Source: Hydrogenobacter sp. T-8 (lineage in GTDB: Bacteria; Aquificota; Aquificia; Aquificales; Aquificaceae). Taken from it: a stretch of 64,000 bases of DNA. The notes under the pieces are model-generated. The model was given only the letters and a program-made list of their open reading frames with translations. It was not told the DNA's origin and searched no databases. The stretch lies in contig NZ_CP048795.1 in assembly GCF_011006175.1 (NCBI RefSeq), forward strand, positions 1,480,491 to 1,544,490. Direction: 5' to 3'. Positions 8,622-60,762 of the stretch are shown here, piece after piece; the first letter of the stretch is position 1, and the number at the start of each line of letters is the position of its first letter. The position numbers and the translations under genes were made by a program.

Positions 8622-10376
8622 TTAGCCCACTAAATACATGGTCTCCGCTTCTACTGCCTTTTTGCCATCTTCTAATATCATATCTCTGTAAGACTTTCCT
8701 GCAGGAACCATAGGAAGCACATTTTCCTCCCTGTCCACGTGGAAGTCCATTATAACGGGCTTGTCCTGAACCCTTAGGGCTTCTTCTATTATCTCTCTCA
8801 CCTCTGAGGGCTTTTCCGCCCTAAAGCCCACCGCACCGCAGGCTTCAGCGAGCTTTACAAAGTCAGGCTGAACGGAAAGGTCTACCTCCGAATATCTTCT
8901 CTCGTAGAAAAGCTCTTGCCACTGACGCACCATGCCCAGATATCCGTTGTTTATTATAGCAACCTTAACTGGCACTCTGTATTGCACCGCAGTAATAAGC
9001 TCCTGCATGGTCATCATAAATGAACCATCTCCGTCTATTACAAACACCTCCTTGTCTGGTCTCCCCAGTTTTGCCCCAATGCCTGCAGGAAAGCCAAAGC
9101 CCATGGTTCCAAGCCCCCCAGAGTTTATAAACTGTCTTGGAAAAGAATATTTATAGAACATGGCGGACCACATTTGATGCTGACCCACGCCTGTGGCGAT
9201 TATAGCTTCGCCCTTGGTAGCCTCGTATATCTGCTCTATTACATACTGAGGTTTTATAACAATGTTGGAGTTTTTATAGGTGAGGGGGTGCTTCTTTTTC
9301 CATGCCTCAATCTGCTCGAGCCATTTCTGTCTTTCCTCTGGGAAGAAGAGCTTTGCACCTTCTCTTTTTATCTCCTCAAGTAGCTTCCTTAGGACTATTT
9401 TCACATCGCCCACTATTGGCACATCCACCACTATGTTCTTGGATATGGAAGCGGGGTCTATGTCTATGTGGATTATCTTTGCCTGAGGAGCAAACTCTTC
9501 TACCTTTCCTGTAACTCTGTCGTCAAAGCGCGCACCCACCGCTATAAGTAGGTCGCAGTTATATACCGCCATATTGGCGTAATATGTGCCGTGCATTCCA
9601 AGCATGTGGAGAGACAGAGGATGAAGCTCTGGGAAGGCACCCTTGCCCATGTTGGTAGTGGTAACTGGTATCTTCATAAGTTCCGCAAGTTCCACAAGCT
9701 CCTTTTGTGCCTCTGCCTGCACCGCTCCACCACCCACATAGAGGACTGGTCTCTTGGCTTCCATTATGAGCCTTACCGCCCTTCTTATCTGCTGGAGGTT
9801 GCCCTCAAGGTGAGGCCTATAGCCGGGAAGGGATTCCTTTACCTCCTCAAGGGAAGGAATTGACACATCGCTGAGCTTTTGTGTTATGTCTTTTGGAATA
9901 TCCACAAGCACGGGTCCTGGTCTTCCAGTCCTTGCTATGTAGAAGGCTTGACGAAGTATGAGAGGTAGGTCTTCTATTCTTTTTACCAAAAAGTTATGCT
10001 TTGTTATAGGTCTTGTTATGCCCACTATGTCCACTTCCTGAAAGGCGTCGTTGCCTATAAGATGAGTGGGGACTTGCCCCGTTATAAAGACCACGGGCAC
10101 AGAGTCCATATAGGCATCCGCTATGGCGGTTACCAAATTCGTAGCTCCTGGTCCAGAGGTGGACATGGCAACACCCACCTTACCCGTAGCCTTTGCGTAG
10201 CCCTCCGCCATATGTCCTGCACCCTGCTCATGTCTTGCAAGGATGTGCCTTATGCCTCCATCTCTGTAGAGGGCATCGTAGACCTCCATTATGGCACCGC
10301 CCGGATGACCAAAGATTATCTCCACACCCTCTTCCTTTAGAGCCTCTATTACAATATCCGCACCCTTTCTTGGCAT
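8622..10376 (-). CDS. ilvB: Acetolactate synthase, large catalytic subunit
   Basis: Thiamine diphosphate enzyme that makes acetolactate or acetohydroxybutyrate for valine, leucine and isoleucine. The 584-residue length is normal. The cofactor-activating glutamate is in [35 protein letters not shown] follows, and the TPP/Mg motif is [15 protein letters not shown]...[12 protein letters not shown] near residue 445. An exact Shine-Dalgarno (GGAGGT, minus strand) precedes the ATG. It is the first gene of a minus-strand series ilvB-ilvN-mntA-hepT-pepA-FAD oxidoreductase. Confidence 0.97.
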
Positions 10377-14791: not shown

Positions 14792-15922
14792 TCAAGTGGT
14801 GTATTCCGCATTTATCCTTATGTAATCATAAGTAAGGTCTGAGCTGTAGTAGGTCCAGCTTTCTTTGCCTTCCATAAGGTCAAGGGTTATCTCCACTTCT
14901 TGAGATTCCTCAAGATATTTTTTTGCGGATTCTATAGCCTTTGGGTGGACTCTTCCGTCATACAGCAGGTGGTTGCCCATGTAAACTTTTAGCTTAAACT
15001 GGTCTATGGGAAAGGGGGTTGAGCCTGCGGCGGCCACTATCCTTCCCCAGTTTGGGTCTTTGCCGAAGACTGCGGTCTTCACAAGGTTTGAAACTGCTAC
15101 CGCCTGAGCTATAAGCCTTGCCTTGAGCTGTATAGAAGCGTTTTTCACATGGACTTTTATAACTCTTGTTGCACCCTCTCCATCTTGAACTATTTTTTTG
15201 GCAAGGCTTAGAGAAACCTCCTCTACCGCTTCGCTCACCATCTGAAGATCTTCCTTTAAAAGTCCAAGGCTTATAAGACCAAAGCTGTCATTGGTGCTCA
15301 TACACCCATCCACACTTATGGAGTTAAAGGTCCGCTCATTTATGTCTCTATGAAGCCTTTCTATTACATCTTCCCTGAGGTCTGCATTGGTAAACACAAA
15401 GGCAAGCATGGTGCCCATGTTGGGATGTATCATGCCTGCACCTTTTGCAAAACCAAAAACCTCAAGTCTCCCCTTCTTCACAAAGTCATACTTTGGAAAG
15501 CTGTCGGTGGTGGATACCACCTCGCTTGCCCTTTTTAGGTCAAGGGGCTCAAGAAGTCCGCAGGCCGAGTCTATTGCATTTAGAACATCTCCTATGGGCA
15601 TGGGCTTGCCGATTACCCCTGTGGAGAAAACAAGCACTTCATCCTCCTCAATTTCAAGCCTTTCTGCTACCCTTTTTGCCATAAGCTCCGCATGGGTCAG
15701 CCCATCTTTACCCACTCCACAGTTTGCGTTTCCGCTGTTTATTACCATTGCCCTCACTTTTCCTTTGAAAACCCTCTGTGAATAAAGCACGCTTGCGGAC
15801 TTGAAGTGATTTTTTGTAAAGAGGAAGGAAGCTACGCAGGTCTGAGGAAGAAGAAGCACGAGAAGGTCAGGCTTCCCTCCAGATTTTAATCCCGCCCTTC
15901 CAACACCCATAAGAATATCCAT
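14792..15922 (-). CDS. argJ: Arginine biosynthesis bifunctional protein ArgJ
   Basis: Ornithine acetyltransferase, and possibly N-acetylglutamate synthase, in the cyclic arginine pathway. It self-cleaves into two chains at a threonine. The usual site is MATML; here GMIHPNMGTML near residue 170 keeps the Thr but has Gly before it. STGVIG and the C-terminal KDPNWGR region are conserved. The reported start at 15985 would overlap the protease gene; MDILMGVGRAG at 15922 fits the family start better. It lies 14 bp after the M48 gene in the same direction. No clear Shine-Dalgarno. Confidence 0.93.
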   Translation of the reverse strand: MDILMGVGRAGLKSGGKPDLLVLLLPQTCVASFLFTKNHFKSASVLYSQRVFKGKVRAMVINSGNANCGVGKDGLTHAELMAKRVAERLEIEEDEVLVFSTGVIGKPMPIGDVLNAIDSACGLLEPLDLKRASEVVSTTDSFPKYDFVKKGRLEVFGFAKGAGMIHPNMGTMLAFVFTNADLREDVIERLHRDINERTFNSISVDGCMSTNDSFGLISLGLLKEDLQMVSEAVEEVSLSLAKKIVQDGEGATRVIKVHVKNASIQLKARLIAQAVAVSNLVKTAVFGKDPNWGRIVAAAGSTPFPIDQFKLKVYMGNHLLYDGRVHPKAIESAKKYLEESQEVEITLDLMEGKESWTYYSSDLTYDYIRINAEYTT

Positions 15923-15936
15923 AAGGAAAAATTCTA

Positions 15937-17196
15937 TCACATACCGCCGAGTCTTCTTAGTCTTTCTTTTGCATCTGATGCCCACTCTGCCTTTCCTTGA
16001 GATAGCTCAAGAGCGGTTCTATAGTGTTCTAACGCTTTGGACACTTGACCCATTGCTTCGTAGTTTCTGCCTAGATAGTAATGGGTGCTTGCATGGTCTG
16101 GTATAAGCTGTCTTGCCCTCTGAAGGTATCTTAGGGATTCCTCATTTTTCCTTTGGAAGAATTTAACATAGGCGTAGACATAGTTTGTAAGGAAAACATC
16201 GGGCATGGTTTCCAGAGCAAGCCTTGACTGCCTTTCAGCTTCCTCAAGCCTTCTTTCGTTGGCAAGAATGTATGCCATATAAGCCCTTGCCACATAGTTC
16301 TCTGGGTATAACTCCACCGCCCTCTGAAAGTGTGTAAGAGCAAGGCTGTAATCCCTATTGGAAAAGGCTTTGCTTCCCTTCTTGAACTCCTCAAAGGAGG
16401 GTTGAGTTTTTAAAAGTTTAGCCTTCATACGCTGAAAATCCTGGGTGTCTGTTATGAAAGCACCCTGAGGTCTAAGTTTCTGTATTTCCCCTTTGGCTTC
16501 CGCAATCCTTGTTTCTGGAAGAGGGTGTGTGGAGAGCCACTCTGGTGGTCTGCCTCCCCTTTCCATAGATTTGAACATCTCAAACACTCCTATAATACCC
16601 ATTGGGTCATAACCAGCTCTGTGGGTGTAGAGTATGCCCAGCTGGTCCGCCTCCCTTTCTTGGTCTCTGCTGAACTTAAGGCTCAAAAGTCCTGCTCCCA
16701 CCTGACCAAACTGAAGCAGTGCTTGTCCGTATGGCTTGTCGCCTACAAGAAGGGCTCCAATATTGAGAAGAAGGTTCAGTCCAAACTGCTTTTCAAGAAA
16801 CCTCGCATGATGCCTTGCGTTTATATGCCCCAGCTCGTGTCCCAAGACGCTTGCAAGCTCGCTTTCAGAGTTTAGCTTCATAAACAGTCCCCTCGTTATC
16901 ATCACAGGACCACCAGGAAGGGCAAAAGCATTTATCAGTGAGGAGTTAACCACATAAAACTCGTAGGGTAGTCTCCTCTCTGTATGCTTTACCAGTGATC
17001 TCCCAACACTTCTTACGTATTCTTGCACTTCCCTGTCTGGATAAAGACCGTCAAACTCCTCAATGGCGTAGGGAACATAAGCCTTGCCTATTTCTATTTC
17101 TCTGCTTTCGGGTAAGAGGTTCAAAAAGGGTCTCCTCGCAGACACATCCGCACAGCTGAGAAGTGTTGAAAGGAGCACAATAATAAGAAGCCTCAT
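15937..17196 (-). CDS. M48 metalloprotease lipoprotein with TPR repeats (BepA/YfgC-like)
   Basis: A 419-residue periplasmic zinc protease of the outer-membrane quality-control type. The start MRLLIIVLLSTLLSC is a lipoprotein signal with lipobox LLSC. The zinc motif HELGHINARHH is at about residue 125, and the third ligand is in READQLG. The C-terminal 170 residues hold at least three tetratricopeptide repeats. The start at 17196 forms an ATGA overlap with hemW, which supports it over the longer reading to 17229. Confidence 0.92.
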   Translation of the reverse strand: MRLLIIVLLSTLLSCADVSARRPFLNLLPESREIEIGKAYVPYAIEEFDGLYPDREVQEYVRSVGRSLVKHTERRLPYEFYVVNSSLINAFALPGGPVMITRGLFMKLNSESELASVLGHELGHINARHHARFLEKQFGLNLLLNIGALLVGDKPYGQALLQFGQVGAGLLSLKFSRDQEREADQLGILYTHRAGYDPMGIIGVFEMFKSMERGGRPPEWLSTHPLPETRIAEAKGEIQKLRPQGAFITDTQDFQRMKAKLLKTQPSFEEFKKGSKAFSNRDYSLALTHFQRAVELYPENYVARAYMAYILANERRLEEAERQSRLALETMPDVFLTNYVYAYVKFFQRKNEESLRYLQRARQLIPDHASTHYYLGRNYEAMGQVSKALEHYRTALELSQGKAEWASDAKERLRRLGGM

Positions 17197-25854: not shown

Positions 25855-28747
25855 GCTTCTCTTCCGCAGGTCCAGGCTTTCCTATGTAATAACCCTGTGC
25901 GTAATCTATGCCTAAGTCAAGGAGGATATCAATGGTCTCCACATCTTCCACATACTCCGCTACCGTTTTTATGCCAAGACCCTTTGCCACCTCTACCATG
26001 CTTTTTACAAAAATCCTGTCCACATGGGACCTCTTCATACTCTTTATAAATTCGCCTTCTATTTTAAGAAAATCCACAGGAAGATACTTAAGGTAAAGAA
26101 AAGAAGCATAACCAGAGCCAAAATCGTCTATGGCAAACCTAAAACCTGCCTCTTTTAAACCCTTTAGAAAACTACTCATCCTACCTATATCCTGTATTGC
26201 CTCCCTTTCTGTTATCTCAAAGACTATACGGTCAGTTTCAACACCATAAGTCCTTGCCCTTTGCACCACATCCTTTATAAAGTCATGCGTAAGATCCTGA
26301 GGTGAAAGGTTAATAAATAGTAAAATATCACTGTTATCCTTAATATAAGCTATCTTCTGAAACAATCCCTCTATCATGGCAATGTCCAGCTTTTGAACAA
26401 GCCCCATATCTTCTGCTATGTTTATAAACCTGCTTGCAGGAAGAAGCTCATCGTCTACTTTTAGCCTCATCAGTGCTTCAAAGCCCTCAACCTTTTCGGT
26501 GCTTAGATTAACTATGTCTTGCAAGAATACCTCTATAGATGCCTTTTCAAGGCTCTCCAGAACCTTTCTCTCAATCCTTCTAAAGGATGTATAAATTTCT
26601 TTTACAGATTCCTCTACGGTCTTTACCCTTCCTTTACCTTCCCTTTTTATGGCATGCATAAGGGCTTCACCGAGCGATAGTATCTCTTCCTTATTCTTCG
26701 CGTCCAGTGGATAACATACTATACCCACGCTTAAACTTGCACGGATTTCCGTATCACCAAAAGCCAGTGGCATATTTAGGATTTCCTGCCTCAACCTCTC
26801 CGCTATATATTCCACCACACCCTTATTAGCCTTTGGCAGTATTACGCCAAACTCATCTCCACCCAGCCTGCCAGCGGTATCAAGCCTTCTTATCTTCTTT
26901 TTGAGCACCTCAGCAACATGCTTAAGGACCATATCTCCCACGTGGTATCCGTAAGTGTCGTTTATAATTTTAAAGTTATCCACATCAATAAAAAGCAAAC
27001 ATAAAGGCTCTCCAGACCTATCAGACCTTTCTATTTCATCTTCAAGAAGCTTTTCAAAGCTTTTTCTGTTGTATAGCATGGTTAATGGGTCATATTCAGT
27101 TAAGAATCTTATACTTGCCTGTGCTTTCTCAAGGTCTTCTATCACCTTCATAAGCTTTACCACATGGAAAAGCTGATTGCTTACCGTTTTCAAAAAGAGA
27201 AACTCCTCTTTGTCAAAGCCTTTGTCTTTCCTAAGTCCTAACAAGCCCGACTGGTAAGAATTGCTTTCAAATTTGCAGTAAATGTATTTATCTCCCGCTC
27301 CATACATATCTGGACTTTCCATTACCTTTTCCAAAAGTTGGTGAAGTTTAAAATCTGGAAAGTTCTGCAAGAAACCACTTGAAAAAACCACTCTTTCTGG
27401 AAGCTCCGCATTCTTATTCCACATGTAGAAAACACTTCCATCCATCTTAAGGGTATAGTCAAGCCTTTCAAGCACCTGTTTAGAAAAGGTATCTATGTTG
27501 TTATATGCCTGAGTGGCATATTCAGAGGTTTCTAAGAGAAGGTAAAGTCTTTCAAGCTCCTTAGCCTTTTCCTCTATGATTTTATCAAAGTTCATGGCGT
27601 TTAGAAGATAGCCAAGTATTATCCTTTCAGTGTTTATTACATGAAGCCTGTCAAGCGGACTTTCCGGATACGCACTTAATCTGCTAACAATAAGATAGTC
27701 CTCATAAAGGCTGTAATGATATTCTCTGTCAAAGTATTGACCTCCAAGGTCCTTCAAAAGCCTTTTTATACTGTTCAAATCAATACCATCAAGCTTATAG
27801 CCCTTTGGACCATGAGCCACAGCCACAAGCCTGTTTTCCTTAAGACTGTATAAAAACATAAACTCAACGATGTAGGAAAAACCCTTATCCAGCCTTAAGA
27901 AAAAGATATTCTCCTCCTTTGTGGGTTTTGACCTTATTATTCCAGTGAGCAGTGTAAGGGCTGATTCCATAATTTGTAAAGCTCTCTGCCTAAGATTAAT
28001 ATAAAGGACTGCATAAAGTATGATTAGGTATGCCAAGAACCTATAAAAAGATGCAAGAACTATAAGAAAGTCATAAAAGTTTTTGTATAAGAAAAGGCTC
28101 AATGAGGAAAGAGAGATTAAATTAAGAGCTGTAAAAATATACCAAGAACATACACTTTCAAAGACCTTGTTTCTTACAACATAAAGGGCAAGGGAAGAGT
28201 AAAGAATTATAGAGAAGGCGTCAAAAGCATCTCTGTGCCAAGTCTGTCCTATACCCTCAAGATACAGGGGCGGTAGGTATGGATGAAACATAACTATCCC
28301 GAAGGAGGCTACAAGAGAAAAAGCTGTCAAAAATCTGTAGGATTTAAGAGGAATGTAGGTTTTAACTTTTGGATAAAAGGCGGAAATATAAAAGGCAAGC
28401 AAAACTAAACTTTTGGAGAGGAGAAAGAGATAAGCTACTTTGTTTCTTGTGTTCTTAGTTATAAAATCTGGGAAAAATACGAAGGAGAGTATATGAAACA
28501 GGTCTGGAATAAGGGAGGGTATTAGGAAAACTCCGAGGGCATAAAGCCTTTCGCTTATAAACCTTCTTCCCAAGGCGATGAGGGTTGCCACAAGAAAAAG
28601 GAGAAGGGCAAAGGAGCTTATTCTCAAAGTTGCTATCCAAAATGCAAAATTAGTCCTATCAAGGACAAGCTGGTCTCTATAGATGTAAGCTAAAAGCGTA
28701 ACAAAAACTCCTCCCAAGAGAAGCATAAAACTTACATATCTGTGCAT
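25829..28747 (-). CDS. large membrane GGDEF-EAL protein
   Basis: 972 residues. The first roughly 255 hold about eight membrane helices. Residues about 290-540 look like a GAF-type sensor, with a coiled segment near 395-420. The GGDEF domain starts at YDPLTMLYNRKSF; its active site is GRLGGDEF with an RxxD site (RRLD) five residues before it. The EAL domain starts at EGFEALMRL and retains FEITE, DDFGSGYASF and KIEGEF. Both catalytic sets look intact, so it could make and degrade c-di-GMP. The ATG at 28747 overlaps the SDR stop (TGATG); the longer reading starts at TTG. Confidence 0.93.
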   Translation of the reverse strand: MHRYVSFMLLLGGVFVTLLAYIYRDQLVLDRTNFAFWIATLRISSFALLLFLVATLIALGRRFISERLYALGVFLIPSLIPDLFHILSFVFFPDFITKNTRNKVAYLFLLSKSLVLLAFYISAFYPKVKTYIPLKSYRFLTAFSLVASFGIVMFHPYLPPLYLEGIGQTWHRDAFDAFSIILYSSLALYVVRNKVFESVCSWYIFTALNLISLSSLSLFLYKNFYDFLIVLASFYRFLAYLIILYAVLYINLRQRALQIMESALTLLTGIIRSKPTKEENIFFLRLDKGFSYIVEFMFLYSLKENRLVAVAHGPKGYKLDGIDLNSIKRLLKDLGGQYFDREYHYSLYEDYLIVSRLSAYPESPLDRLHVINTERIILGYLLNAMNFDKIIEEKAKELERLYLLLETSEYATQAYNNIDTFSKQVLERLDYTLKMDGSVFYMWNKNAELPERVVFSSGFLQNFPDFKLHQLLEKVMESPDMYGAGDKYIYCKFESNSYQSGLLGLRKDKGFDKEEFLFLKTVSNQLFHVVKLMKVIEDLEKAQASIRFLTEYDPLTMLYNRKSFEKLLEDEIERSDRSGEPLCLLFIDVDNFKIINDTYGYHVGDMVLKHVAEVLKKKIRRLDTAGRLGGDEFGVILPKANKGVVEYIAERLRQEILNMPLAFGDTEIRASLSVGIVCYPLDAKNKEEILSLGEALMHAIKREGKGRVKTVEESVKEIYTSFRRIERKVLESLEKASIEVFLQDIVNLSTEKVEGFEALMRLKVDDELLPASRFINIAEDMGLVQKLDIAMIEGLFQKIAYIKDNSDILLFINLSPQDLTHDFIKDVVQRARTYGVETDRIVFEITEREAIQDIGRMSSFLKGLKEAGFRFAIDDFGSGYASFLYLKYLPVDFLKIEGEFIKSMKRSHVDRIFVKSMVEVAKGLGIKTVAEYVEDVETIDILLDLGIDYAQGYYIGKPGPAEEKLRNFFSKG

Positions 28748-40248: not shown

Positions 40249-40977
40249 CTAATCTCTAAGTAGTTGCAAGAACTCCTTGACAGCCCTTTCTATACCCCAA
40301 AGAAGTGCGTTGGAGATTATAGAATGACCTACGTTTAACTCTTCTACCACATCCCTCAAGGATTCTACAAGTAAAGAAGTGTTTTTGTATGTAAGCCCAT
40401 GCCCTGCGTAAACCCTTAGACCTAGAGACCTTGCCTTTAGACCAGCCTCTTTTAGTCTTTGTATCTCCCTCTTTGCTTCCTCAATTTTGTGTGAGTTGAA
40501 AAGGTTTGCATACCTCCCCGTGTGAAGTTCCACAGCGTCAGCCCCCACTTCCTTACTTGCGTATACTTGGGACTCTTCTGGTTCTATAAAAAGGGAAACC
40601 TCTATTCCAGATTCCTTGAAGTCTTTTATATATTCCCTTAGATGGTCTTTCATGGCAACTACGTTTAGCCCGCCTTCTGTGGTTATTTCCTCTCTTCTTT
40701 CTGGTACAAGGGTTATCCTGTTGGGCTTAACCCTCAGAGCTATAGCCTTCATCTCATCCGTTGCTGCCATTTCAAGGTTCACTGGCACATGCACTGCCTT
40801 TTTTATAAGCTCCAAGTCTTCTTCTTGCACATGCCTTCTGTCCTCTCTTAGATGTAAGGTTATTTGATGTGCTCCTGCTTGCTGGGCAATCAAGGCTGCA
40901 AAAAGAGGGCTTGGCTCAAAGGTTTTCCTTGCCTGCCTAAGGGTTGCCACATGGTCTATGTTTACACCGAGCCTCAT
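40249..40977 (-). CDS. pdxJ: pyridoxine 5'-phosphate synthase
   Basis: A 242-residue TIM barrel that condenses the PdxA product with deoxyxylulose-5-phosphate to form pyridoxine phosphate. RLGVNIDHVATLRQAR at the start, HLREDRRHV, LEMA, ELHTGRYA and GHGLTYKN are all family signatures. The stop-start ATGA overlap with manC puts it at the end of the polysaccharide operon, which is probably chance clustering. Confidence 0.96.
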   Translation of the reverse strand: MRLGVNIDHVATLRQARKTFEPSPLFAALIAQQAGAHQITLHLREDRRHVQEEDLELIKKAVHVPVNLEMAATDEMKAIALRVKPNRITLVPERREEITTEGGLNVVAMKDHLREYIKDFKESGIEVSLFIEPEESQVYASKEVGADAVELHTGRYANLFNSHKIEEAKREIQRLKEAGLKARSLGLRVYAGHGLTYKNTSLLVESLRDVVEELNVGHSIISNALLWGIERAVKEFLQLLRD

Positions 40978-42356
40978 GACTGCCCTTCTATGAGGATTAT
41001 ATCATCATCCCCTAAATACTCGCCCATCCTTATTTCTAAAAGTTCTGCTACTACAAACCCCACATTCTCAATACTGTAAGGGCTTGTCTTATAAGCGTAA
41101 GCAGTATCACCAGCTGTGTAATAGCCAATTTTTGAACTGGTCTTTATACGAACAGTCCCTTTCAGAACTGTCCAGGTTCTGTTATGGTGCATGTGCATAC
41201 GATTACTTATGGACCTTCCAGGAAGTATACTTAACTTACTTATTCTATAGCCTTGTCCCGTCTCCAAGATTAGCTCTGTTCCCCACTCGTAGCTATTTTC
41301 AACATGGAAGTAGGCTTCCTTATAACCTTTCTCCTTTAGAAGTTTTACTAAATCCCTTACTTTTCTAGCACTTCCCCTTTTCATCACAAGAATCGCATCC
41401 CTATTTTCTATTACCGCAATATCATTTACATCTAAAAGACATACTAACTTACTGGTGCTATAGACTAAGGAATTTTCACTATCAAAGCATAGACTCTTAC
41501 CCATGCACACGTTGTCTCTATCATTCTTTTCTATAACAGAATAAAGACCATCAAAAGAACCCACATCACTCCAAAATATATCCATAGGAACCACAGCACC
41601 CCTTCGTGTCTTTTCCATCTCCATGTAGTCAAAGGCTATATCAGGAAGTCCACAGTAGTTTTCAAGAAAAGTTTCATAACCCTCAGACATCACTCCGTAA
41701 ATCTCTGGAGCATTTAACTTAAACTCTTCAATGGCAGTGCGGACGCTAAAGACAAAGTTTCCTGAGTCCCAAAAGTAAGACCCTTCCTCCAATAATTTTT
41801 GAACCAATTCACCCTTGGGTTTCTCTATAAACCTTTCCATCCTATAGGCTTTTATCTCACCCTGCTCTTTAAGTAAAGCACCCGCCTTTATGTATCCAAA
41901 GTTCTCTTCTGGTCTGGTAGGATGAATGCCAAAGGCTACCACGTACCCATCCTCAGCGACACTGCTGGCAAACCTCAGATACTCCACAAACCTGTCCTCT
42001 GGTTTTATAAGCTGGTCAGAGGCAAGCGTAAAAATTACCTCCTCTTCCTGCACACCCAAAACCTCTTTCATGTATAGCAAGCCCAGGGCTATGGCTGGAC
42101 CTGTGTTTTTTCTACAAGGCTCTGTAAGAAGTGTATACCCCTCATAAGGATAAAGGTCATTTATGACCTTATGCTTATAATCTTTATGTGTTATTACAAG
42201 TATATTCCTGTGGTCTACCAGCTTTAGAGCTCTTTCGTAGGTCATTCTCAAGAAGGAAATATCATCAAATAGCTTTAAAAACTGCTTTGGATGGTTTTCT
42301 CTTGATAGAGGCCAAAGCCTTGTGCCACTACCACCTGCCAGTATCATAACCTTCAT
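40974..42356 (-). CDS. manC: mannose-1-phosphate guanylyltransferase / mannose-6-phosphate isomerase
   Basis: A 460-residue bifunctional-type enzyme that forms GDP-mannose. MILAGGSGTRLWPLSREN is the nucleotidyltransferase loop. GNFVFSV and FIEKP follow. The C-terminal 110 residues are a cupin (MHMHHNRTWTVLKGTVRI), the isomerase-like domain of type II enzymes. It is the most informative member of the polysaccharide locus, because it implies a mannose- or GDP-mannose-derived polymer. Overlaps of 4 bp occur on both sides. Confidence 0.93.
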   Translation of the reverse strand: MKVMILAGGSGTRLWPLSRENHPKQFLKLFDDISFLRMTYERALKLVDHRNILVITHKDYKHKVINDLYPYEGYTLLTEPCRKNTGPAIALGLLYMKEVLGVQEEEVIFTLASDQLIKPEDRFVEYLRFASSVAEDGYVVAFGIHPTRPEENFGYIKAGALLKEQGEIKAYRMERFIEKPKGELVQKLLEEGSYFWDSGNFVFSVRTAIEEFKLNAPEIYGVMSEGYETFLENYCGLPDIAFDYMEMEKTRRGAVVPMDIFWSDVGSFDGLYSVIEKNDRDNVCMGKSLCFDSENSLVYSTSKLVCLLDVNDIAVIENRDAILVMKRGSARKVRDLVKLLKEKGYKEAYFHVENSYEWGTELILETGQGYRISKLSILPGRSISNRMHMHHNRTWTVLKGTVRIKTSSKIGYYTAGDTAYAYKTSPYSIENVGFVVAELLEIRMGEYLGDDDIILIEGQS

Positions 42357-43429
42357 AAGCTAACCTCCTTAAGGCTTTTTCTAAAAGCAGAGAGCTTGTC
42401 AAGACTTCCATATTCGTTATTCTTTACCAGCCCATAACTCATAAAAGAAAAACTTCTCAAGCCTAATCTGTATAATCTCCCTATGTAGTCTGAGTTATTC
42501 ATATAGGTCATGTCATCCGCAACCACGTCTGCCCTCTTATTATTTGGCATGTAGTGAGCAAGATGCAAAGGCTTACCATACTGAGAGAAAAACTCACAAT
42601 TTTTGAGTATTCTCTGAGGATTGCCATAGCCCCCGTTTTCAGACATTTTATAGTCAAACATGCTTTGAAAAAATATGGCATTGCTGTTCTGGATAACAGG
42701 CTCAAAAAATCTTATGAAATTTATGCCTTCTTGAAATTCTACAAGCCATCCACCAAAGCATATCCCATAAACCGCATCCACACCACTGTTTTTTATGATG
42801 TCTATGGCATTAAGAAGATTGCTTCTTAAACGAGTGTAATAGTCTTTAGTAAGGTCATTTATACTATCCGTATAAGGAATTTCATGTTTGCAAGTTTGGT
42901 TATACCTACAAGCGGTATAAGTAGATTGTTCAGTGGCAAGGGCTATGTATACCTTACCTTTTACTTGAGACTTTAAAATAGACAAAACATCCCGAAGGTC
43001 CTGCAAAAAGGTTTGGGATATGTGATACTCTCCGTAAGTTGGTCCACCAAAAGAGGGGTTTTGACCGTCGTAGTTTTCCCAAGTTATTAGCATAAGACTG
43101 TAGCCAAGCTCTGACCACTCCTTAAAGCGTCCCTTATTAGCCCAATCCCTTATAAAGTGCATGCTGTTTCCATAAGGTTGTTTACGGTCATCTACAGAAC
43201 CATTTAACCAAAAATTAAGTATGTTTGGTTCAAGAATGTCTAAAACTCTTTTTCCTTCAGGATCATAACCATTAACAAGCCTTTCTGGGTCTTCCCCAAG
43301 CCCAAAGAGTATGGACCTCCCCTGCGGTAGCTGTGGTTGTGGCTGAAGAGAGGATGAATTACCGCCAGAACTTCCACAACTTGCTACACCCAAAAGTAAG
43401 CTAATCAGAAAAGTTCTTCTGTCTACCAT
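42353..43429 (-). CDS. lipoprotein with probable TIM-barrel fold, putative glycosidase
   Basis: A 358-residue lipoprotein: MVDRRTFLISLLLGVASC ends in a lipobox (VASC), followed by a Ser/Gly/Gln/Pro linker. The body has alternating strand-helix segments (YSLMLITWENYDG, KVYIALATEQSTY, VDAVYGICFGGWLVE), which look like a barrel hydrolase. I cannot name the family. In polysaccharide synthase loci such enzymes usually trim or edit the chain, so that role is inferred. It overlaps both neighbours by a few bases. Confidence 0.6.
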   Translation of the reverse strand: MVDRRTFLISLLLGVASCGSSGGNSSSLQPQPQLPQGRSILFGLGEDPERLVNGYDPEGKRVLDILEPNILNFWLNGSVDDRKQPYGNSMHFIRDWANKGRFKEWSELGYSLMLITWENYDGQNPSFGGPTYGEYHISQTFLQDLRDVLSILKSQVKGKVYIALATEQSTYTACRYNQTCKHEIPYTDSINDLTKDYYTRLRSNLLNAIDIIKNSGVDAVYGICFGGWLVEFQEGINFIRFFEPVIQNSNAIFFQSMFDYKMSENGGYGNPQRILKNCEFFSQYGKPLHLAHYMPNNKRADVVADDMTYMNNSDYIGRLYRLGLRSFSFMSYGLVKNNEYGSLDKLSAFRKSLKEVSL

Positions 43430-44865
43430 TTATAAACTTCCCTATTAGTGTTAGTGTATAGCATATATTTTAATCCATCATATACAAGGTAAAAATTTGG
43501 GACAAAGCCAGATTCAGATTTGATAAATCTCTTTTTTATAGCATCTTTTGAATTTCTACTTATCAACATACAATCTGCAAAGGTTATAGGGTTTGACAGA
43601 GCGGTATAGTATGTGTAATTGTGCGGGAGTATAAATATATTGGAACTTCCTGTAAAATAAACCACTGGAAAGGTGTAAGCATCGTCAGAGAGAATTTTTT
43701 TACACCCGTAGCCAATTAAAAGTTCCGCAATTATCCTGTCTTCTTTTATGCTTATCCTTTCTGGTATGATTCTACCTTTGAGGGAACCAATGAATTCTTT
43801 CTCATTTAAATCTTTTGAATGATCTGGTATAAAGAAAGCAGAAAGAAAAGCTATAATCATGGAAAACAAGTAGGGCTTTGAGTTTGCTATCCTTAGGTAA
43901 AAAGCAAAGACAAGGGAAAAGAGTAGAAACAAAACGGATGAATACATGTATGGGAAAGACATGCCAAAATATATGGAGAAATAAAATACAAATATGGGTA
44001 CTATATAAACCAAAAACAGAGGAGTTGTATATAAAAGTTTAAACCTCTTTATGTAAGGTATAACTAAGAAATACGGTAGAATGAGAAGGCTATTTAAAAA
44101 CAACTGCTTTAAGGTAAGGTAAAGACTTCGTATAAATGAGCCAGATGCTTGTATAAATTCATCAATAACAGGCTCACTTCTGAAAAAGGAATAAGGACTT
44201 TGAATAAAATTAAGGGGATTACCTGTGAAAATCCAGTTTAAATAGAGCCAAGAAAAAAGGAAAAATACAACAGGAGTAATTTTCACCACCACAATTGCAA
44301 CCCTGTAGGGAAAATTTTCTTTACTAGTCAACAGAAAAAGGCTGATAAAGTATACAGGAACTACAAAAAGACTCCTAAAGTCTACAAAGAATGTTATGCC
44401 AAGAAGCAAACCTGCGACGAATATATACAAGGAATATTTTGTTTCTATATGTCTTACTGTGTAAAAAACAGATAGGGAAAGCAGTATATAGAATAAAAGC
44501 ACATCAAATCTCTGGGAAGATAGAAATAGGTATAGAGGATTGAGCATAATAATAGAAATACTCAAAATAGATAGAGCGTCTGTTTTATAAGTTTTTATGA
44601 GATATGTTATTAAAAATGTGGAAAACAAAGCACTTATGATAGGTGAAACTAAAAGAGGGTCGTTGACTATAAGGAAAGGCACAAAGGCGATAGGTGGATA
44701 AACAAAACCTATATTTTCCACTCTAAAACCACTTTGCACCGCTATCAATGCTTTTTCCGCAAAGAAAAGTAAATTGCTATGGATATAATCAAACTTAAAA
44801 AACAGCTCTTGTGATATATAAAAGTAAAGCAAGAAGAGTATAAAAAATACTATGAAGGCTATCAT
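43423..44865 (-). CDS. polytopic membrane protein, probable GT-C-type glycosyltransferase
   Basis: A 480-residue protein with about ten or eleven membrane helices in the first 370 residues and a soluble tail of about 110. The first loop holds FKFDYIHSN and FVYPPIAFVPF, which resembles the acidic first loop of ArnT/PMT-like (GT39, GT-C) enzymes; these use lipid-linked sugars. Identity is uncertain, and an EPS polymer-modifying or translocating protein is also possible. It is AT-richer than the surrounding genes. Linked by overlaps of 4 and 7 bp. Confidence 0.6.
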   Translation of the reverse strand: MIAFIVFFILFLLYFYISQELFFKFDYIHSNLLFFAEKALIAVQSGFRVENIGFVYPPIAFVPFLIVNDPLLVSPIISALFSTFLITYLIKTYKTDALSILSISIIMLNPLYLFLSSQRFDVLLFYILLSLSVFYTVRHIETKYSLYIFVAGLLLGITFFVDFRSLFVVPVYFISLFLLTSKENFPYRVAIVVVKITPVVFFLFSWLYLNWIFTGNPLNFIQSPYSFFRSEPVIDEFIQASGSFIRSLYLTLKQLFLNSLLILPYFLVIPYIKRFKLLYTTPLFLVYIVPIFVFYFSIYFGMSFPYMYSSVLFLLFSLVFAFYLRIANSKPYLFSMIIAFLSAFFIPDHSKDLNEKEFIGSLKGRIIPERISIKEDRIIAELLIGYGCKKILSDDAYTFPVVYFTGSSNIFILPHNYTYYTALSNPITFADCMLISRNSKDAIKKRFIKSESGFVPNFYLVYDGLKYMLYTNTNREVYKW

Positions 44866-46757
44866 GAGCCAACTACCGGTGGTTTGTATTTGGTTATGCC
44901 ATGTTGTGTCTTTTGCCAGTAGAAGGGCTTTGTAAACAATTCATATAGTGCTTTATATGAAGCTATAGAATGAAGTATCCAATATATTGGATTTAAAAAA
45001 GCGTAAGGAAGTAGTTCGTAATAGCCTCTTTTGAAAACTGCAATCATATTTAGGTAAATGCCTATAAAATTACCTATTAGGAGATTAAATAAAGATACAT
45101 GTAGCAATAATGGAGGGAATATTGGTTCATAAGTCTTTGTTTGAGTTATAAGCCATATTAAAAACATAAACCACATTATAGGGTTCATCAGAAATGTAAG
45201 AGGAGTCCCTCCTATTAGAAATAGGAAAGATAACATTCCCTTAAATCCGACGGTTTTGTAAAGTCTTTTTAGGTTTCTTGAGTGCACTAAAAAGGTCTGC
45301 ATGTATCCTTTAATCCATCTTGACCTCTGTCTTATCCAGTTTTTTAATTTTGCGTTTGCCTCCTCATAGGTCGTGGAGTTAATTATGCCTACTTTGTATC
45401 CTTTCCCAAAGCCTCTGACCCCAAGGTCTGCATCTTCTGTGGTGTTAAAGGGATCCCACGCGCCTATCTCACGAAGCTTTTCCACATCAAAGTGGTTGCT
45501 TGTGCCTCCAAGAGGAATGGGTAGTTTAAGGTTGAAAAGACCAGGTAATAGATAGTCAAACCAGTAAGAATACTCAAGAGTAAACATCTTTGTAAGAAAG
45601 TTTTCATCCTTGTTAAAGTAGTTTAGTGCTGCCTGAAAACATATGTAATCTTTGCCAGCCTTTCTAAAGGCTATAACTGCCTTTTTTAGTTGGTCCGGCT
45701 CAGGTATGTCCTCCGCATCGTATATGGTTAGATATTTCCCTTTGGCAAAAAACAAACCGTAATTACACGCCTTTGGTTTTGTTTTGGGAATACTGTTGGG
45801 TACTATAATAAAACGCCAGTTGGCTGGTGGTCTGTGGTCTTTTGCAGCCTTTAATGTTTCTGTATCATCCTCCTCAAGAAGCAGAATAACATCCAGTTTA
45901 TCCTGGGGGTAGTCCATCTTTTTTAAACCTTCCATCAGTATGCCGACAACTTCAGGTTCTTTGTATACAGGAACAAGTATCGTATATACAGGCAATTCAT
46001 CATCCTTCAAAGCTTTAACCTCTTCTTCTGTTATGAACTGCTCCATTTCACTTTTTGCCCCCGCTATACTAACGACAAGTTTGAATCCTATAGAAAGAAG
46101 GTAAAAAACTTGTGCTATTCCTATAATAGTTATAAGAGTAAATACAGCATTTATATAAAGTCCAATTAACACTGAAAAAAGCACAAAACCCATAAAGAGA
46201 ACCTGCATTTTTGAAAAAACTAAAGATGCAGAATACTCAGGAGATAAATAAAATAACCCCTTAATCGCCTTGTCTATTAGCAAATCCTTATAGATATATT
46301 CAAGAGTTTTTATAAGGTCAAGGTCAGTTATAACCACTAACTCTGTCTTGTATCCACTAAAGTGCCTGTTTATAAACTCATCAAGCTCAATACTTCCAGG
46401 GTTTGACACAAAAAGTTTTACAGTATTTGTATATTTATCTAAATTTGCGGGTATAACCTCATATCTTATAAGTTCTTGAACTTCAAAACCCTTAATAAAT
46501 TCAGCGTTAATTTGCATAAGAATCTTTTCTGTTCCCAGTAAGAAAGGAAGGTTAAAATGTTCTGCAAGTGCCCTATAAAGGTCAATTCTCCTAATATAAC
46601 CAAGAGAGGCAAGTATCCATCCTAACCTCCCACCGCTTTTTTCCTGATATTCAAGAGCTTCTTTAAGTTGCTCTTCTGTGATATAACCTTTTTCAACTAA
46701 TATACTACCGATCAAGCTTCTTTTAGAAGCTATACCATAAATTGAAGAAGAAGCCAT
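44862..46757 (-). CDS. MshEN-GT2 polysaccharide synthase (c-di-GMP-type regulatory domain fused to processive glycosyltransferase)
   Basis: 631 residues. The N-terminal 150 residues are an MshEN/GspE-N domain, with both 24-residue c-di-GMP-type motifs visible: LIGSILVEKGYITEEQL...AL..Q and RLGWILASLGYIRRIDL...AL. Two membrane helices follow (about 190-235). Then comes a family 2 glycosyltransferase with YDAEDIPEPD, TTEDADLG and QRSRWIKG, the D, DxD-like, TED and QxxRW residues of processive synthases such as BcsA, and three or four C-terminal helices. E. coli NfrB has related parts. The ATG at 46757 is preferred because GGTGGGAG lies 6 nt upstream; the start overlaps the barrel gene by 35 bp. 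Confidence 0.9.
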   Translation of the reverse strand: MASSSIYGIASKRSLIGSILVEKGYITEEQLKEALEYQEKSGGRLGWILASLGYIRRIDLYRALAEHFNLPFLLGTEKILMQINAEFIKGFEVQELIRYEVIPANLDKYTNTVKLFVSNPGSIELDEFINRHFSGYKTELVVITDLDLIKTLEYIYKDLLIDKAIKGLFYLSPEYSASLVFSKMQVLFMGFVLFSVLIGLYINAVFTLITIIGIAQVFYLLSIGFKLVVSIAGAKSEMEQFITEEEVKALKDDELPVYTILVPVYKEPEVVGILMEGLKKMDYPQDKLDVILLLEEDDTETLKAAKDHRPPANWRFIIVPNSIPKTKPKACNYGLFFAKGKYLTIYDAEDIPEPDQLKKAVIAFRKAGKDYICFQAALNYFNKDENFLTKMFTLEYSYWFDYLLPGLFNLKLPIPLGGTSNHFDVEKLREIGAWDPFNTTEDADLGVRGFGKGYKVGIINSTTYEEANAKLKNWIRQRSRWIKGYMQTFLVHSRNLKRLYKTVGFKGMLSFLFLIGGTPLTFLMNPIMWFMFLIWLITQTKTYEPIFPPLLLHVSLFNLLIGNFIGIYLNMIAVFKRGYYELLPYAFLNPIYWILHSIASYKALYELFTKPFYWQKTQHGITKYKPPVVGS

Positions 46758-47502
46758 GTGCATCTCCCACCCTTCTGCCATAGAGGGTTTTCTGATAACC
46801 TGGCACTAAGGAAAGATTTCCTAATTTTATTCTTGGTGCTATATTTACCTGCACCAGTTTATAGTCTGGTTCAAGAAAAACATTTTCACCAATTGATTTC
46901 CTCTTGCCATTTCCAAGACCAATTTGAGCATCAACAAAGGTCAGAAGCTGAAGGCTCTGAGTTATGTTTATACCGCCACCGCTGTATGCCCTTATCTGAC
47001 TTGAAGGATAACCAAAGTAATATCTATAACCCACACCAGAATCCCAAAAGCCCCAATTACCAGAAAATCCGTATAGTAGACCGCCCTCTACTGCAAACCT
47101 TCCGTATCCTATTCTTGGATTATCCTTTATGGAGTAGCCTGTAGGCATGATTAAATTTCCATAAAGAGATAAGGAGTCTCTTTGACCCTTACGCACATTT
47201 CTTATAATTCCAAGCTCAAAGTCTCCCAAACCAGAAGTTTCACCATCTCCACATTCTAACCAGCTATAGGGTAATTTGAAAACAGCAGTATGTTTTGGGT
47301 CTATTCCGTATTCACCATAGATTTGTAGCTCTCTTTTTTCAAAGGTGCATCCTATAGGACGCCTTTTACTGTCTTTATCGTAATATTTTGTTGCTTTTTG
47401 GTAGTTAAAACTCGTTGAGATAAAAAACTCACCCTCTTGCCTGACCCACGCTGAGGCGAATACAAATGAGCTTGATAAGAGTACAAGAGAAAGAGTCCTC
47501 AT
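46723..47502 (-). CDS. outer-membrane beta-barrel protein of the polysaccharide locus
   Basis: A 259-residue protein with a signal peptide ending near FASA and about ten alternating amphipathic strands (ISTSFNYQKA, DSLSLYGNLIM, GVGYRYYFGY). It ends in WYSF, the C-terminal aromatic of barrel proteins. It sits between the BcsB-like gene (ATGA overlap) and the synthase, so it may be the exit pore for the polymer, although it lacks the TPR scaffold of BcsC-type exporters. The TPR protein at 32366-34003 could be too far to count. Confidence 0.72.
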   Translation of the reverse strand: MRTLSLVLLSSSFVFASAWVRQEGEFFISTSFNYQKATKYYDKDSKRRPIGCTFEKRELQIYGEYGIDPKHTAVFKLPYSWLECGDGETSGLGDFELGIIRNVRKGQRDSLSLYGNLIMPTGYSIKDNPRIGYGRFAVEGGLLYGFSGNWGFWDSGVGYRYYFGYPSSQIRAYSGGGINITQSLQLLTFVDAQIGLGNGKRKSIGENVFLEPDYKLVQVNIAPRIKLGNLSLVPGYQKTLYGRRVGDAHGFFFNLWYSF

Positions 47503-49454
47503 ACTGTCCTCCTTGTTAGTTTCCTATAGGTATGCATTAGAAGGTAAAGCACAGGTATAGAGAGGAGTATTATTATAAGCAATCTATACTTCATCCAATA
47601 ATAACCTATTCCCCTCTCCCTTTCGTATCTCAATCTTAGTTTATCTCCAATCTCAAAAGATGCAAAATAGCTTTCTGATATCACCGCCACATTACCGTAT
47701 AGGTTCAAATAATCTTCTATAGAATACATATGGGCTAAAGCTGGAACATCTGGATTACCATAAAGGCTTACCTTTAGCTCTGGAGTAGAAAGATCCTTTA
47801 GCACCAAATAAACAAAGGGCAACTCGTATTTTGCGGAGAACACAACCCTTTTTTCTACAGGGTCATAAACTTCAAAAAGTCCCTTATTAGAATCTGGCTT
47901 AACAAAGCTGAGAATATAATCATAATTCTCATCTTCTTTCTCTATAAACTCAACTGTGCCTATACTTTTATTTACCTCTGGAAGCATATTTAGAATCCTA
48001 ACTGCAAGTGGTAGCAATTTGTTATCTTCTATTCTCAATCCCACCCTTCCGTTAATCATCTTAAAGAAGTCCGCTATTGTTTTTACCCTTTTGTTAACAC
48101 TATTCCAGTAAAAGTATGAATTGTCAAAAACAGTCAGCACAGATTGCGCCACTGCACCAAAACAGTTGTCCGAGGAGGTGAAATTGACTAAGTTGACCAC
48201 AAGGCTGTTATGACCGTATGAAAGTTCCTGAGATGGTATTTTTATATCAATGCCCTTTGTTCCATGACTTTCAAGAGGAAGTGTTTTTATAAGTGTGTCG
48301 TTCAAGTATACTCTCAGTTCCATTTTATCTTTTTGGTGTGCCGGGGTGTGGGCAAAATTAAGCCTAAAGTATAGCGTATCTGGTATTCCACCGAAAGAAG
48401 CCAAGTTGAAAGGTATGTGGAAGGAAATGTTTGACATACCTTTTATAGTAGCAGTTTTAATACCAAGCTCTTTGAGAGAAAACTCCTTGTATTTGGGTGT
48501 TTTCCTCTTCTTTGCTTGTTCTACTTGGATTGATTTACCAAAGATAAATGGTTCGTAGCCATATTGTATAGCTTCCAGTAAAAGCTTATTGACATACAAG
48601 GTATTACCTTCAAGTTTTGTATTGTCTTTAGACATTTTTATTATCTTTTGACAATTATCACTTATTCCCCAGTTGAAAACAGGCAAAATGGCTCTGACCT
48701 TGGATATGTAGTATACTAATGGTAAGAGCTCGCGGTCTTCTATACAAAATTGTCTTTCGTAATCCATCAGAAATGTCCTTATATCCTCCGCTGGTTTATA
48801 CGAAAAAGTAACGGTGCTGTCCGCATGTATTATAAGATAAGGCTTATCAGAGAAAACATCTTCACATATGTTGTTTGAAAGTCTTAGATTTCCTCTTATT
48901 GAGACCTTTATAAAATCTCTACCTCTTCTTGGTCTTATCTCAAGATTTATTGGCTGACCAGAGTTTTGCATGGTTATAGTATACTGAGGCACATCATCTA
49001 CGAGTATACTTACGGATGAGTCTTTTCTTAAGTATGTTGGAATAGTAAGTTTTAGATTTATGTTTGCTCTGACTAGGTTGTTATAGAGGGGTATGTAAAA
49101 ATCATAAGCTGGGCTAATACCCCTTAAAACCATATCTTCTTTTAGAAGATTTATTTCCTTGAAAGTATACTGCACTACTTTATATGAGGTTTCCGGCGTT
49201 TGTTTTGTTTCATACTTTTTATTTTGTATTTTTGACGAGGTTTTATCCAATGTATTAACCTCTGATTTTGTATGGATTCTTCTTTGAGAGATATCTTTAA
49301 CCCTTTGCTCTCCCCTTGGTTGTGTATCAGAAAACACTTCATCTACACTAGGAAGATTTCTTTGAAAACCACCAGCATTCACTTTCGCTACAGAGACAAA
49401 AATAAGTAGAAAAATAGCCAGTTTTATATAGCTTATTCTTATATTTGATTTCAT
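47499..49454 (-). CDS. BcsB-like periplasmic subunit of a polysaccharide synthase
   Basis: A 651-residue protein with a signal peptide or anchor (residues 10-27), a Ser/Thr/Lys-rich linker to about residue 95, and repeated beta-rich modules: VLRGISPAYDFYIPLYNNLV, then SSVSILVDDVPQ, and again SFHIPFNLASFGG, MELRVYLNDTLI. This double pattern matches the BcsB family of cellulose synthase partners. A single helix near the end (LLIIILLSIPVLYLLM) anchors it. In cellulose synthase, BcsB guides the chain across the periplasm; the same role is inferred here. It is the first gene of the operon, with a leaderless-type start. Confidence 0.82.
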   Translation of the reverse strand: MKSNIRISYIKLAIFLLIFVSVAKVNAGGFQRNLPSVDEVFSDTQPRGEQRVKDISQRRIHTKSEVNTLDKTSSKIQNKKYETKQTPETSYKVVQYTFKEINLLKEDMVLRGISPAYDFYIPLYNNLVRANINLKLTIPTYLRKDSSVSILVDDVPQYTITMQNSGQPINLEIRPRRGRDFIKVSIRGNLRLSNNICEDVFSDKPYLIIHADSTVTFSYKPAEDIRTFLMDYERQFCIEDRELLPLVYYISKVRAILPVFNWGISDNCQKIIKMSKDNTKLEGNTLYVNKLLLEAIQYGYEPFIFGKSIQVEQAKKRKTPKYKEFSLKELGIKTATIKGMSNISFHIPFNLASFGGIPDTLYFRLNFAHTPAHQKDKMELRVYLNDTLIKTLPLESHGTKGIDIKIPSQELSYGHNSLVVNLVNFTSSDNCFGAVAQSVLTVFDNSYFYWNSVNKRVKTIADFFKMINGRVGLRIEDNKLLPLAVRILNMLPEVNKSIGTVEFIEKEDENYDYILSFVKPDSNKGLFEVYDPVEKRVVFSAKYELPFVYLVLKDLSTPELKVSLYGNPDVPALAHMYSIEDYLNLYGNVAVISESYFASFEIGDKLRLRYERERGIGYYWMKYRLLIIILLSIPVLYLLMHTYRKLTRRTV

Positions 49455-59069: not shown

Positions 59070-60762
59070 GGCAAAACTTTTAGAGCTTTTGGTAAAACTC
59101 GGATACATAAGCGGAGATAAAGCCATAGAGGCTCAGAAAGAGAAAGGGAAAGATGAAGACATAATAAGCACGCTTTTAAGGCTTGGTTTCATTGACGATG
59201 TTAGGCTTATAGATTTTTATCAGAAATATATGCCACAGAGGTTGTGGAGAGGTAGCATTGAAAATATAGCCCTTCCCGAAGGATTAAAAGAAAAACTTCC
59301 AGAGAGCCTACTGAGAAAACATACCATAGCACCCGTCAAGTACGAGGATGGGAAGCTCTACGTTCTCACTATAAACCCTTTTAATCAAAGCGCCATAAAC
59401 GAGCTAAGGTTCAAGACAAAGATAAACACTATAGTACCCTTTGTTTCCACGAAAAAGTCTATAGAAGACCTGCTTAACAAGCTGTATCCTGCGGTAGACA
59501 GAATTGTGGAGAGCTTTGAAGTGGGTGATGAGGTAGAAATAGAAGCAGAGGAGATGGAACTATCCCCCGAGATGCTGATGGCGGAAGCAGGAGAGGGACC
59601 TATCGTTAGATTGGCGAACTTCCTTATAGCGGAAGCGGTAAACCTTGGAGCTTCGGACATACACATAGAGCCTCAGGAAAAAAAGCTCTTGGTAAGATAC
59701 AGGGTGGACGGTGTTTTGAGAATATACCACGAGTTTCCCGTAAGGATAAAGGACTCTTTGGTAGCAAGGTTCAAGATTATGGCAAACCTTGACATAGCAG
59801 AAAAAAGAAGGCCTCAGGATGGAAGGATAAGAACGAGGTTTAAAGGTAAGAAGATAGACCTCAGGCTTTCTACTGTCCCAACGGTTTATGGGGAGAAGGT
59901 TGTTATGAGAATTCAGGAAGCGGAGAGGTATTTGAATGTGAAGCTTGACGACCTTGGCTTTGAACCCGATGACCTTGAGAAATTTAGAAAAGCCATATGG
60001 ACCCCTTGGGGTATGATACTTGTTACTGGACCCACAGGGTCTGGTAAAACCACCACCCTTTACGCATCTCTCATGGAACGCAATAGTCCCGATGTGAACA
60101 TAATGACCGCAGAAGACCCAGTTGAGGTAGCTATTCCAGGACTAAATCAGGTGCAAATCAACGAGAGAATAGGACTTACCTTCGCAAGTGTTTTGAGAGC
60201 CTTTCTAAGACAAGACCCAGACATAATACTCATAGGTGAAATAAGGGACACAGAAACTGCGGAGATAGGCATAAAGGCAGCGCTTACAGGACACTTAGTC
60301 TTTTCTACTTTGCACACCAACGACGCACCCTCTTCTGTAACGAGGCTCGTAGACATGGGTATAGAGCCTTTCTTGGTAGGTTCTTCTGTAATACTCATAG
60401 TAGCCCAAAGGCTTGTGAGAAAGCTCTGTCCTAAGTGTAAGATGCCGGACGATACACCCAGAGAAGCACTCTACAGGCTCGGTGTCCTAAAATCACCTGA
60501 TGAGGACATAGTTATCTATAAGGCAAACCCTAAGGGTTGTGAACACTGCAACGGCTCTGGCTATAAAGGCAGGACCGCTGTGCATGAGATACTGGAAGTG
60601 GACGAAGAGATGAGAAAGCTCATCGTAAAGGGTGCCACCGCAGAAGACATAAGAGACCTTGCCAGAAAGAAGGGCATGAGAACCCTATATGAAGCTGGTA
60701 TACTTAAGGTTAGGAAGGGTATAACTTCCCTTGCTGAGGTGGAAAGGGTGCTTGCAAAATAG
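59062..60762 (+). CDS. type IV pilus assembly / type II secretion ATPase (PilB/GspE)
   Basis: 566 residues. An N-terminal MshEN-type domain (LLELLVKLGYISGDKAI, then LLRLGFIDD) comes first, the N2 domain with RYRVDGVL, and the ATPase core: GPTGSGKTTTLY (Walker A, about residue 327), AEDPVE, LIGEIRDTETAEIG (Walker B and Asp box), and the zinc-type CPKC...CEHC. It powers pilus extension or secretion. The MshEN motif is less complete than in the synthase at 44862. The start at 59062 has AGAGGA upstream. No other pil genes are adjacent. Confidence 0.92.
   Translation: MDEAKLLELLVKLGYISGDKAIEAQKEKGKDEDIISTLLRLGFIDDVRLIDFYQKYMPQRLWRGSIENIALPEGLKEKLPESLLRKHTIAPVKYEDGKLYVLTINPFNQSAINELRFKTKINTIVPFVSTKKSIEDLLNKLYPAVDRIVESFEVGDEVEIEAEEMELSPEMLMAEAGEGPIVRLANFLIAEAVNLGASDIHIEPQEKKLLVRYRVDGVLRIYHEFPVRIKDSLVARFKIMANLDIAEKRRPQDGRIRTRFKGKKIDLRLSTVPTVYGEKVVMRIQEAERYLNVKLDDLGFEPDDLEKFRKAIWTPWGMILVTGPTGSGKTTTLYASLMERNSPDVNIMTAEDPVEVAIPGLNQVQINERIGLTFASVLRAFLRQDPDIILIGEIRDTETAEIGIKAALTGHLVFSTLHTNDAPSSVTRLVDMGIEPFLVGSSVILIVAQRLVRKLCPKCKMPDDTPREALYRLGVLKSPDEDIVIYKANPKGCEHCNGSGYKGRTAVHEILEVDEEMRKLIVKGATAEDIRDLARKKGMRTLYEAGILKVRKGITSLAEVERVLAK

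Follow-up and report, generated by a model that had tools for sequence, protein, structure and literature searches.

The gene cluster described here belongs to the xag/sfz kind of machine, for which names exist in other bacteria; its polysaccharide synthase carries an MshEN domain in front of its glycosyltransferase (GT2) domain. The cluster lies in a stretch of 64,000 nucleotides (the window) from the heat-loving bacterium Hydrogenobacter sp. T-8, whose 1.8-Mb genome forms one contig. Judging from its domains, two predicted folds, the conserved neighbourhood and the conservation of motifs, we consider it likely that the locus encodes a c-di-GMP-activated synthase-secretion machine which makes a synthase-dependent exopolysaccharide. 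The list of open reading frames contains an operon-like run of six minus-strand ORFs that extends from 49454 down to 40974 and overlaps end to end, by 4, 59, 4, 7 and 4 nt in turn (Table 1). The 59-nt value depends on an uncertain start of the synthase, as the ATG at 46781 gives this overlap with the barrel gene and the relatives begin about 15-20 codons later. A further 4-nt overlap takes the run from manC into the vitamin B6 gene pdxJ (manC and pdxJ together span 40249-42356 on the minus strand), and the only gene of the GMP_PMI type in the genome is thus tied to both the cluster and pdxJ. A first-pass annotation of this DNA had listed the same six genes, and we recovered all of them in the order that it gave, although the end which it quoted for the cluster (42353-49454) omits the manC gene that it lists and the true end is at 40974. 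Pfam and NCBIfam provide firm family names for three of the six: BcsB, GT2 with MshEN, and ManC.

Table 1. Features of the cluster, in window coordinates.
Feature	Position	Strand	Basis
BcsB-like periplasmic membrane-anchored subunit, Sfz1-like, 651 aa	47499..49454	-	Pfam BcsB, 3e-16
Predicted outer-membrane beta-barrel, XagA-like, 259 aa	46723..47502	-	family match to the gene preceding xagB in Xanthomonas, 6e-18
MshEN-GT2 polysaccharide synthase, XagB/Sfz2-like, 639 aa	44862..46781	-	Pfam GT2, 5e-20; c-di-GMP_motif, 1.8e-18
53-residue MshE-type c-di-GMP double motif, synthase residues 24-74	46560..46712	-	NCBIfam NF053729 (E=1.8e-18) and alignment
MshEN C-terminal subdomain, about residues 88-166 of the synthase	46284..46520	-	Pfam PF05157, 23.5 bits, above cutoff
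Integral membrane glycosyltransferase of predicted GT-C fold, 480 aa, Sfz3-like by position and size	43423..44865	-	predicted fold
Lipoprotein with predicted glycoside-hydrolase TIM barrel, RR and lipobox-like signal, 358 aa	42353..43429	-	predicted fold
ManC, bifunctional mannose-1-phosphate guanylyltransferase / phosphomannose isomerase	40974..42356	-	NCBIfam GMP_PMI (TIGR01479), 380 bits, above cutoff

The assignment of the synthase N-terminus is based on profile HMMs and on matches to PDB sequences, and these agree with the earlier claim that an MshEN domain with two 24-residue motifs is fused ahead of a processive GT2. The two motifs stand 5 residues apart and are followed by the C-terminal subdomain, which a Pfam search of the whole genome placed above its cutoff; as far as the sequence can tell, the module is complete in both subdomains. 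Residues 16-165 align with MshE, PilB and PilF in a phmmer search against PDB sequences, the MshE structure 5htl covering residues 20-159, and the profile of the synthase family matches PilF (3e-45), MshE (6e-17) and also PilB. Motif I reads L-I-G...L..G...L...L..Q and motif II R-L-G...L..G...L...L..H. Scored against the residues that contact c-di-GMP (R, L, G, G, L, L and Q in each motif), the synthase meets 12 of 14 positions, and its close relatives meet 12-14. The four glycines and the guanine-contacting leucines are kept, with one leucine of motif I replaced by isoleucine, while the arginine of motif I is Leu and the final glutamine of motif II is His. The first-pass annotation would have counted a loss of key arginine or glycine residues against its own reading; all the glycines stand and the motif I arginine does not. 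In relatives from the synthase's own family this position of motif I is occupied by R, K or T, and its counterpart in motif II is R without exception. The arginine of MshE stacks on the guanine, and the leucines and glycines bear most of the binding; changes of Arg9 or Gln32 lower the affinity at most about fivefold, and those of the glycines and leucines cost most (PMC5013675). Since the glycines and leucines are kept and the lost Arg and Gln positions cost little in MshE, binding of c-di-GMP by the window's copy is likely but not certain. The two halves of the synthase are sometimes found apart: at one locus in a single-contig genome (L043, 8556-10488) the MshEN and GT2 parts lie in different frames with a TAA stop codon between them, as if by frameshift, and at a cyanobacterial locus (L093, 9138-11557) they are separate ORFs. 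The window contains a second, stronger MshEN (58.8 bits, 59257-59493 on the plus strand) in a 584-aa ORF that is probably a PilB-type ATPase of type IV pili, and c-di-GMP may therefore control pili and polymer together.

The GT2 domain has the motifs D, DxD (residues 355-358), TED (448-450) and QRSRW (485-489), all invariant in the relatives; the D, TED and QxxRW motifs reported before are thus real, and the Pfam search found no PilZ in the synthase, in line with what that annotation had inferred. Its partner is BcsB-like as claimed, and the profile of the partner's family finds the solved BcsB at 7e-16. The 259-aa protein, which has no match in Pfam or among PDB sequences, is a predicted outer-membrane barrel. 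For the 480-aa membrane protein, the AlphaFold model (pLDDT 89.5) resembles ArnT (Z 15.1 over 396 residues, rmsd 4.6) and Pmt4 (Z 16); every entry with Z of 8.3 or more in the list of similar structures is a GT-C chain, the entry that follows has Z 3.5, and two relatives of the protein contain a PMT_2 domain. By its model, the protein is therefore predicted to be an enzyme of GT-C fold. The lipoprotein model (pLDDT 77) matches TIM barrels of GH1, GH26 and GH5 with Z of about 18, and with these two folds the annotation's GT-C-like and hydrolase-like proteins are both accounted for. Glu167 of the lipoprotein, located after strand 4 where clan GH-A keeps its acid/base, is invariant, as are E118, E264 and D301; at the other clan GH-A position, where strand 7 ends, alignment and model show no Glu that is conserved. 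The N-terminus of this family, MxxRRxFL followed by a cysteine lipobox, is like that of Tat-exported lipoproteins, and its RR is invariant in 11 relatives.

According to the model that we propose, c-di-GMP would bind to the cytosolic N-terminal MshEN of the synthase and turn on the adjoining GT2 domain, which would link sugars from a nucleotide donor and pass the growing chain out by way of its own membrane helices. In the periplasm the chain would be received by the BcsB-like protein, and the small barrel would then release it across the outer membrane. On the periplasmic side, the GT-C protein would probably add a sugar taken from a lipid carrier; the role of the TIM-barrel lipoprotein would probably be to trim, release or hold the chain.

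How widespread is this arrangement? In a scan covering one genome per species, the synthase had at least 587 relatives, and neighbourhoods were taken from the best 80. Within these best 80 of at least 587, the same kind of cluster occurs in more than 15 bacterial phyla, among them Nitrospinota, Thermodesulfobacteriota, Myxococcota, Chloroflexota, Thermomicrobiota, Deinococcota, Bacillota, Synergistota, Cyanobacteriota, Gemmatimonadota, Thermotogota, Actinomycetota, Bacteroidota, Ignavibacteriota and Pseudomonadota. BcsB is upstream of the synthase in 53 of 67 loci with enough sequence and the GT-C gene is immediately downstream in 57 of 73, so the neighbourhood is conserved in relatives over many phyla, as the first-pass annotation required. 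A barrel of the window's family lies within 6.5 kb of the synthase in 18 of 51 loci, and wide conservation is limited to the GT2, BcsB and GT-C genes; the GT-C profile matches loci in Gammaproteobacteria, Nitrospinae and Bacteroidota. Aquificota relatives keep the order BcsB, barrel, synthase, GT-C, lipoprotein. In two Aquificota genomes (G096 and G095) genes of the same families are arranged as barrel, GT-C, BcsB, synthase; here the MshEN has its c-di-GMP motif destroyed, and the genomes have only 4 and 2 GGDEF genes, respectively.

It may be that MshEN is structural in these synthases or serves another partner, and that the enzyme is constitutively on with no direct part for c-di-GMP. We regard this as unlikely, even with the substitutions of R by L and Q by H in the window's motifs and with a domain that is kept, its binding motif destroyed, in at least four lineages, including Bacteroidota and the two Aquificota genomes; such retention requires some function of the domain that is independent of c-di-GMP. 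Against a purely structural part stand the most important glycines and leucines, present in the window's protein as in almost all members of the Aquificota synthase family (f1) that have this N-terminal region, and the 13 GGDEF proteins of the genome, two of whose GGDEF domains lie in the window (3935-4408 and 26630-27097). The first-pass annotation would have c-di-GMP supplied by the two GGDEF proteins in the window (at 2972 and 25829), which are two candidates out of these 13. We also related motif integrity to diguanylate cyclases in 50 synthase-bearing genomes, one split gene being left out. A strong GGDEF gene was present in 27 of 29 genomes with an intact motif and 5 of 20 with a degenerate one (p about 1e-6); with only one Mucilaginibacter-group member kept, the counts were 27/29 and 5/12 (p=0.001). 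The association is carried mostly by one Bacteroidota/Ignavibacteria clade, and there are exceptions both ways, with cyanobacterial members, the two Aquificota genomes above and a few others having a degenerate MshEN despite GGDEF genes. On the tree, six changes between intact and degenerate motifs are required, at least four of them on well-supported branches. Because an independent-pairs test finds one or two co-changes only, the association not being significant once corrected for phylogeny, it is suggestive only that motif integrity tracks diguanylate cyclases. A cellulose synthase of the BcsAB type with its PilZ replaced was rejected as a very improbable reading. It could explain the BcsB subunit and the distant similarity of the synthase to BcsA (1.5e-16 by family profile against PDB), but the CelA equivalog model gives 53 bits against a cutoff of 699, PilZ is missing, neither BcsC nor BcsZ lies beside the synthase, and the synthases form a family of their own with 45-74 percent identity across phyla.

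Returning to the c-di-GMP-activated machine, which sugar would it polymerize? Because ManC would supply GDP-mannose, the polymer probably contains mannose. Within the clusters of Aquificota relatives manC occurs in the window's genus only, and clusters of Synergistaceae, Halanaerobium and Anoxybacillus include it too. Genes for GH113, a family whose founding activity is beta-1,4-mannanase and whose solved structure BaMan113A is named a beta-mannanase, adjoin the synthase in Xanthomonas, two gammaproteobacterial loci and Nitrospinae. The biofilm of Xanthomonas requires xag (PMC3528676, PMC8042644) and is dispersed by an endo-beta-1,4-mannanase (PMC3528676). From manC in the operon, GH113 beside the synthases of relatives and the mannanase-dispersed biofilm, we favour a mannose-containing chain as plausible, and these neighbours offer a testable guess at a polymer that published work calls uncharacterised. 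A polymer based on another sugar, such as a glucan or an amino-sugar polymer, has a chance only slightly short of even and does not conflict with the proposed mechanism; ManC would then serve lipopolysaccharide or the general supply of GDP-mannose. As the sole gene of its type in the genome, manC must serve all uses of GDP-mannose, and its ORF overlaps the unrelated pdxJ. It was found in few loci, most relatives having no manC nearby, and the GT2 protein NfrB probably uses UDP-ManNAc (PMC8669469).

The first-pass annotation, partly supported and right in outline, was wrong in regarding the gene set as undescribed, since it matches xagABCD in Xanthomonas (PMC3609779, PMC3528676), bcsB-xagBCD in Ferriphaselus (PMC4643136) and sfz1-6 in Zetaproteobacteria, the twisted-stalk iron oxidisers (PMC8250860). 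The gene set itself was already known, and what is new here is that the xag/sfz synthases are connected with the MshEN switch. A 2015 paper placed xagABC among the c-di-GMP-responsive operons without a known receptor and predicted that there is one (PMC4624772), and the xag and sfz papers leave the c-di-GMP receptor of the cluster unnamed. The stalk paper took the N-terminus of Sfz2 for an EpsE-like secretion ATPase/translocation domain and sought RxxD and RxxxR motifs instead (PMC8250860); by its InterPro name, T2SSE_N, which is an older name of MshEN, this domain appears to be an MshEN module. Nowhere in the literature searched is the MshEN front end of an xag/sfz synthase named as a c-di-GMP switch, and a paper that treats both MshEN and BcsB does not describe the cluster. 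Our evidence points to the synthase's own N-terminus as the receptor, both in Xanthomonas and throughout the more than 15 phyla, so the question of the switch spans the family from hot-spring Aquificota to twisted stalks. We tentatively suggest, as a possibility that is still doubtful, that the xag/sfz synthases are c-di-GMP-gated mannan synthases with their own MshEN as the missing receptor, and that they represent one ancient machine for adhesive polymers, serving Aquificota, the biofilms of Xanthomonas and the stalks of iron bacteria alike, whose switch has worn out in lineages that lost c-di-GMP.

Among known systems, the BcsA-BcsB cellulose synthase shares with the window a processive GT2, BcsB and control by c-di-GMP, but it has PilZ at the C-terminus of BcsA, the large BcsC exporter and UDP-glucose as substrate. 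The nearest proven case is the NfrB-NfrA-YbcH system, the phage N4 receptor of E. coli, which provides the experimental precedent for an MshEN switching a GT2 (PMC8669469). There, however, MshEN forms the C-terminal part of NfrB, the barrel NfrA is large and of the TPR type, and no GT-C protein or hydrolase is present; BcsB is reported only from the cluster of one relative, A. xylosoxidans (PMC8669472). We rejected membership of the NfrB family, as the domain order is swapped and the NfrB model hits residues 20-116 only (model positions 480-572), with 33.8 bits against a cutoff of 1170.

The xagABCD cluster is closer, with a barrel, an MshEN-GT2 of the same family, a membrane protein and a hydrolase, and its genes are needed for c-di-GMP-linked biofilm (PMC3609779, PMC3528676). 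The synthase of one Xanthomonas locus (L128) is 46 percent identical to that of the window over residues 17-633, the barrel profile matches at 8905-9942 of the same locus (6e-18), and the Xanthomonas order barrel, MshEN-GT2, membrane protein, GH113 hydrolase fits the published one (PMC3609779). It differs in that no BcsB was matched beside the xag synthase, XagC does not match the window's GT-C profile, and XagD is a GH113 enzyme instead of the TIM-barrel lipoprotein. In sfz1-6 there are BcsB (sfz1), T2SSE_N-GT2 (sfz2), a protein of about 500 aa (sfz3), a hydrolase of 323-345 aa (sfz4), a protein of about 315 aa (sfz5) and CotH (sfz6) (PMC8250860). This set and sfb1-4 of Zeta- and Betaproteobacteria share BcsB, the synthase, the protein of about 500 aa and the hydrolase of about 330 aa with the window in the same order, the likeness to Mariprofundus Sfz being one of domains, sizes and gene order only; unlike there, the window has manC and lacks CotH, and the sfz hydrolase was read as GH10. 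Two gammaproteobacterial loci (L083 and L118) with consecutive BcsB, MshEN-GT2, GT-C, GH113 and barrel genes fit sfz1-6 by domain, size and order, the second with a CotH-family gene after the cluster (15218-16969) matching the CotH-bearing sfz6, and Sfz4 is probably a hydrolase of the GH113 type. Because no GH113 gene was found anywhere in the window's genome and the lipoprotein is unrelated to GH113 (no match by hmmsearch or hhalign), we file the locus as a variant of the xag/sfz machine, outside xagABCD and sfz1-6 in the strict sense.
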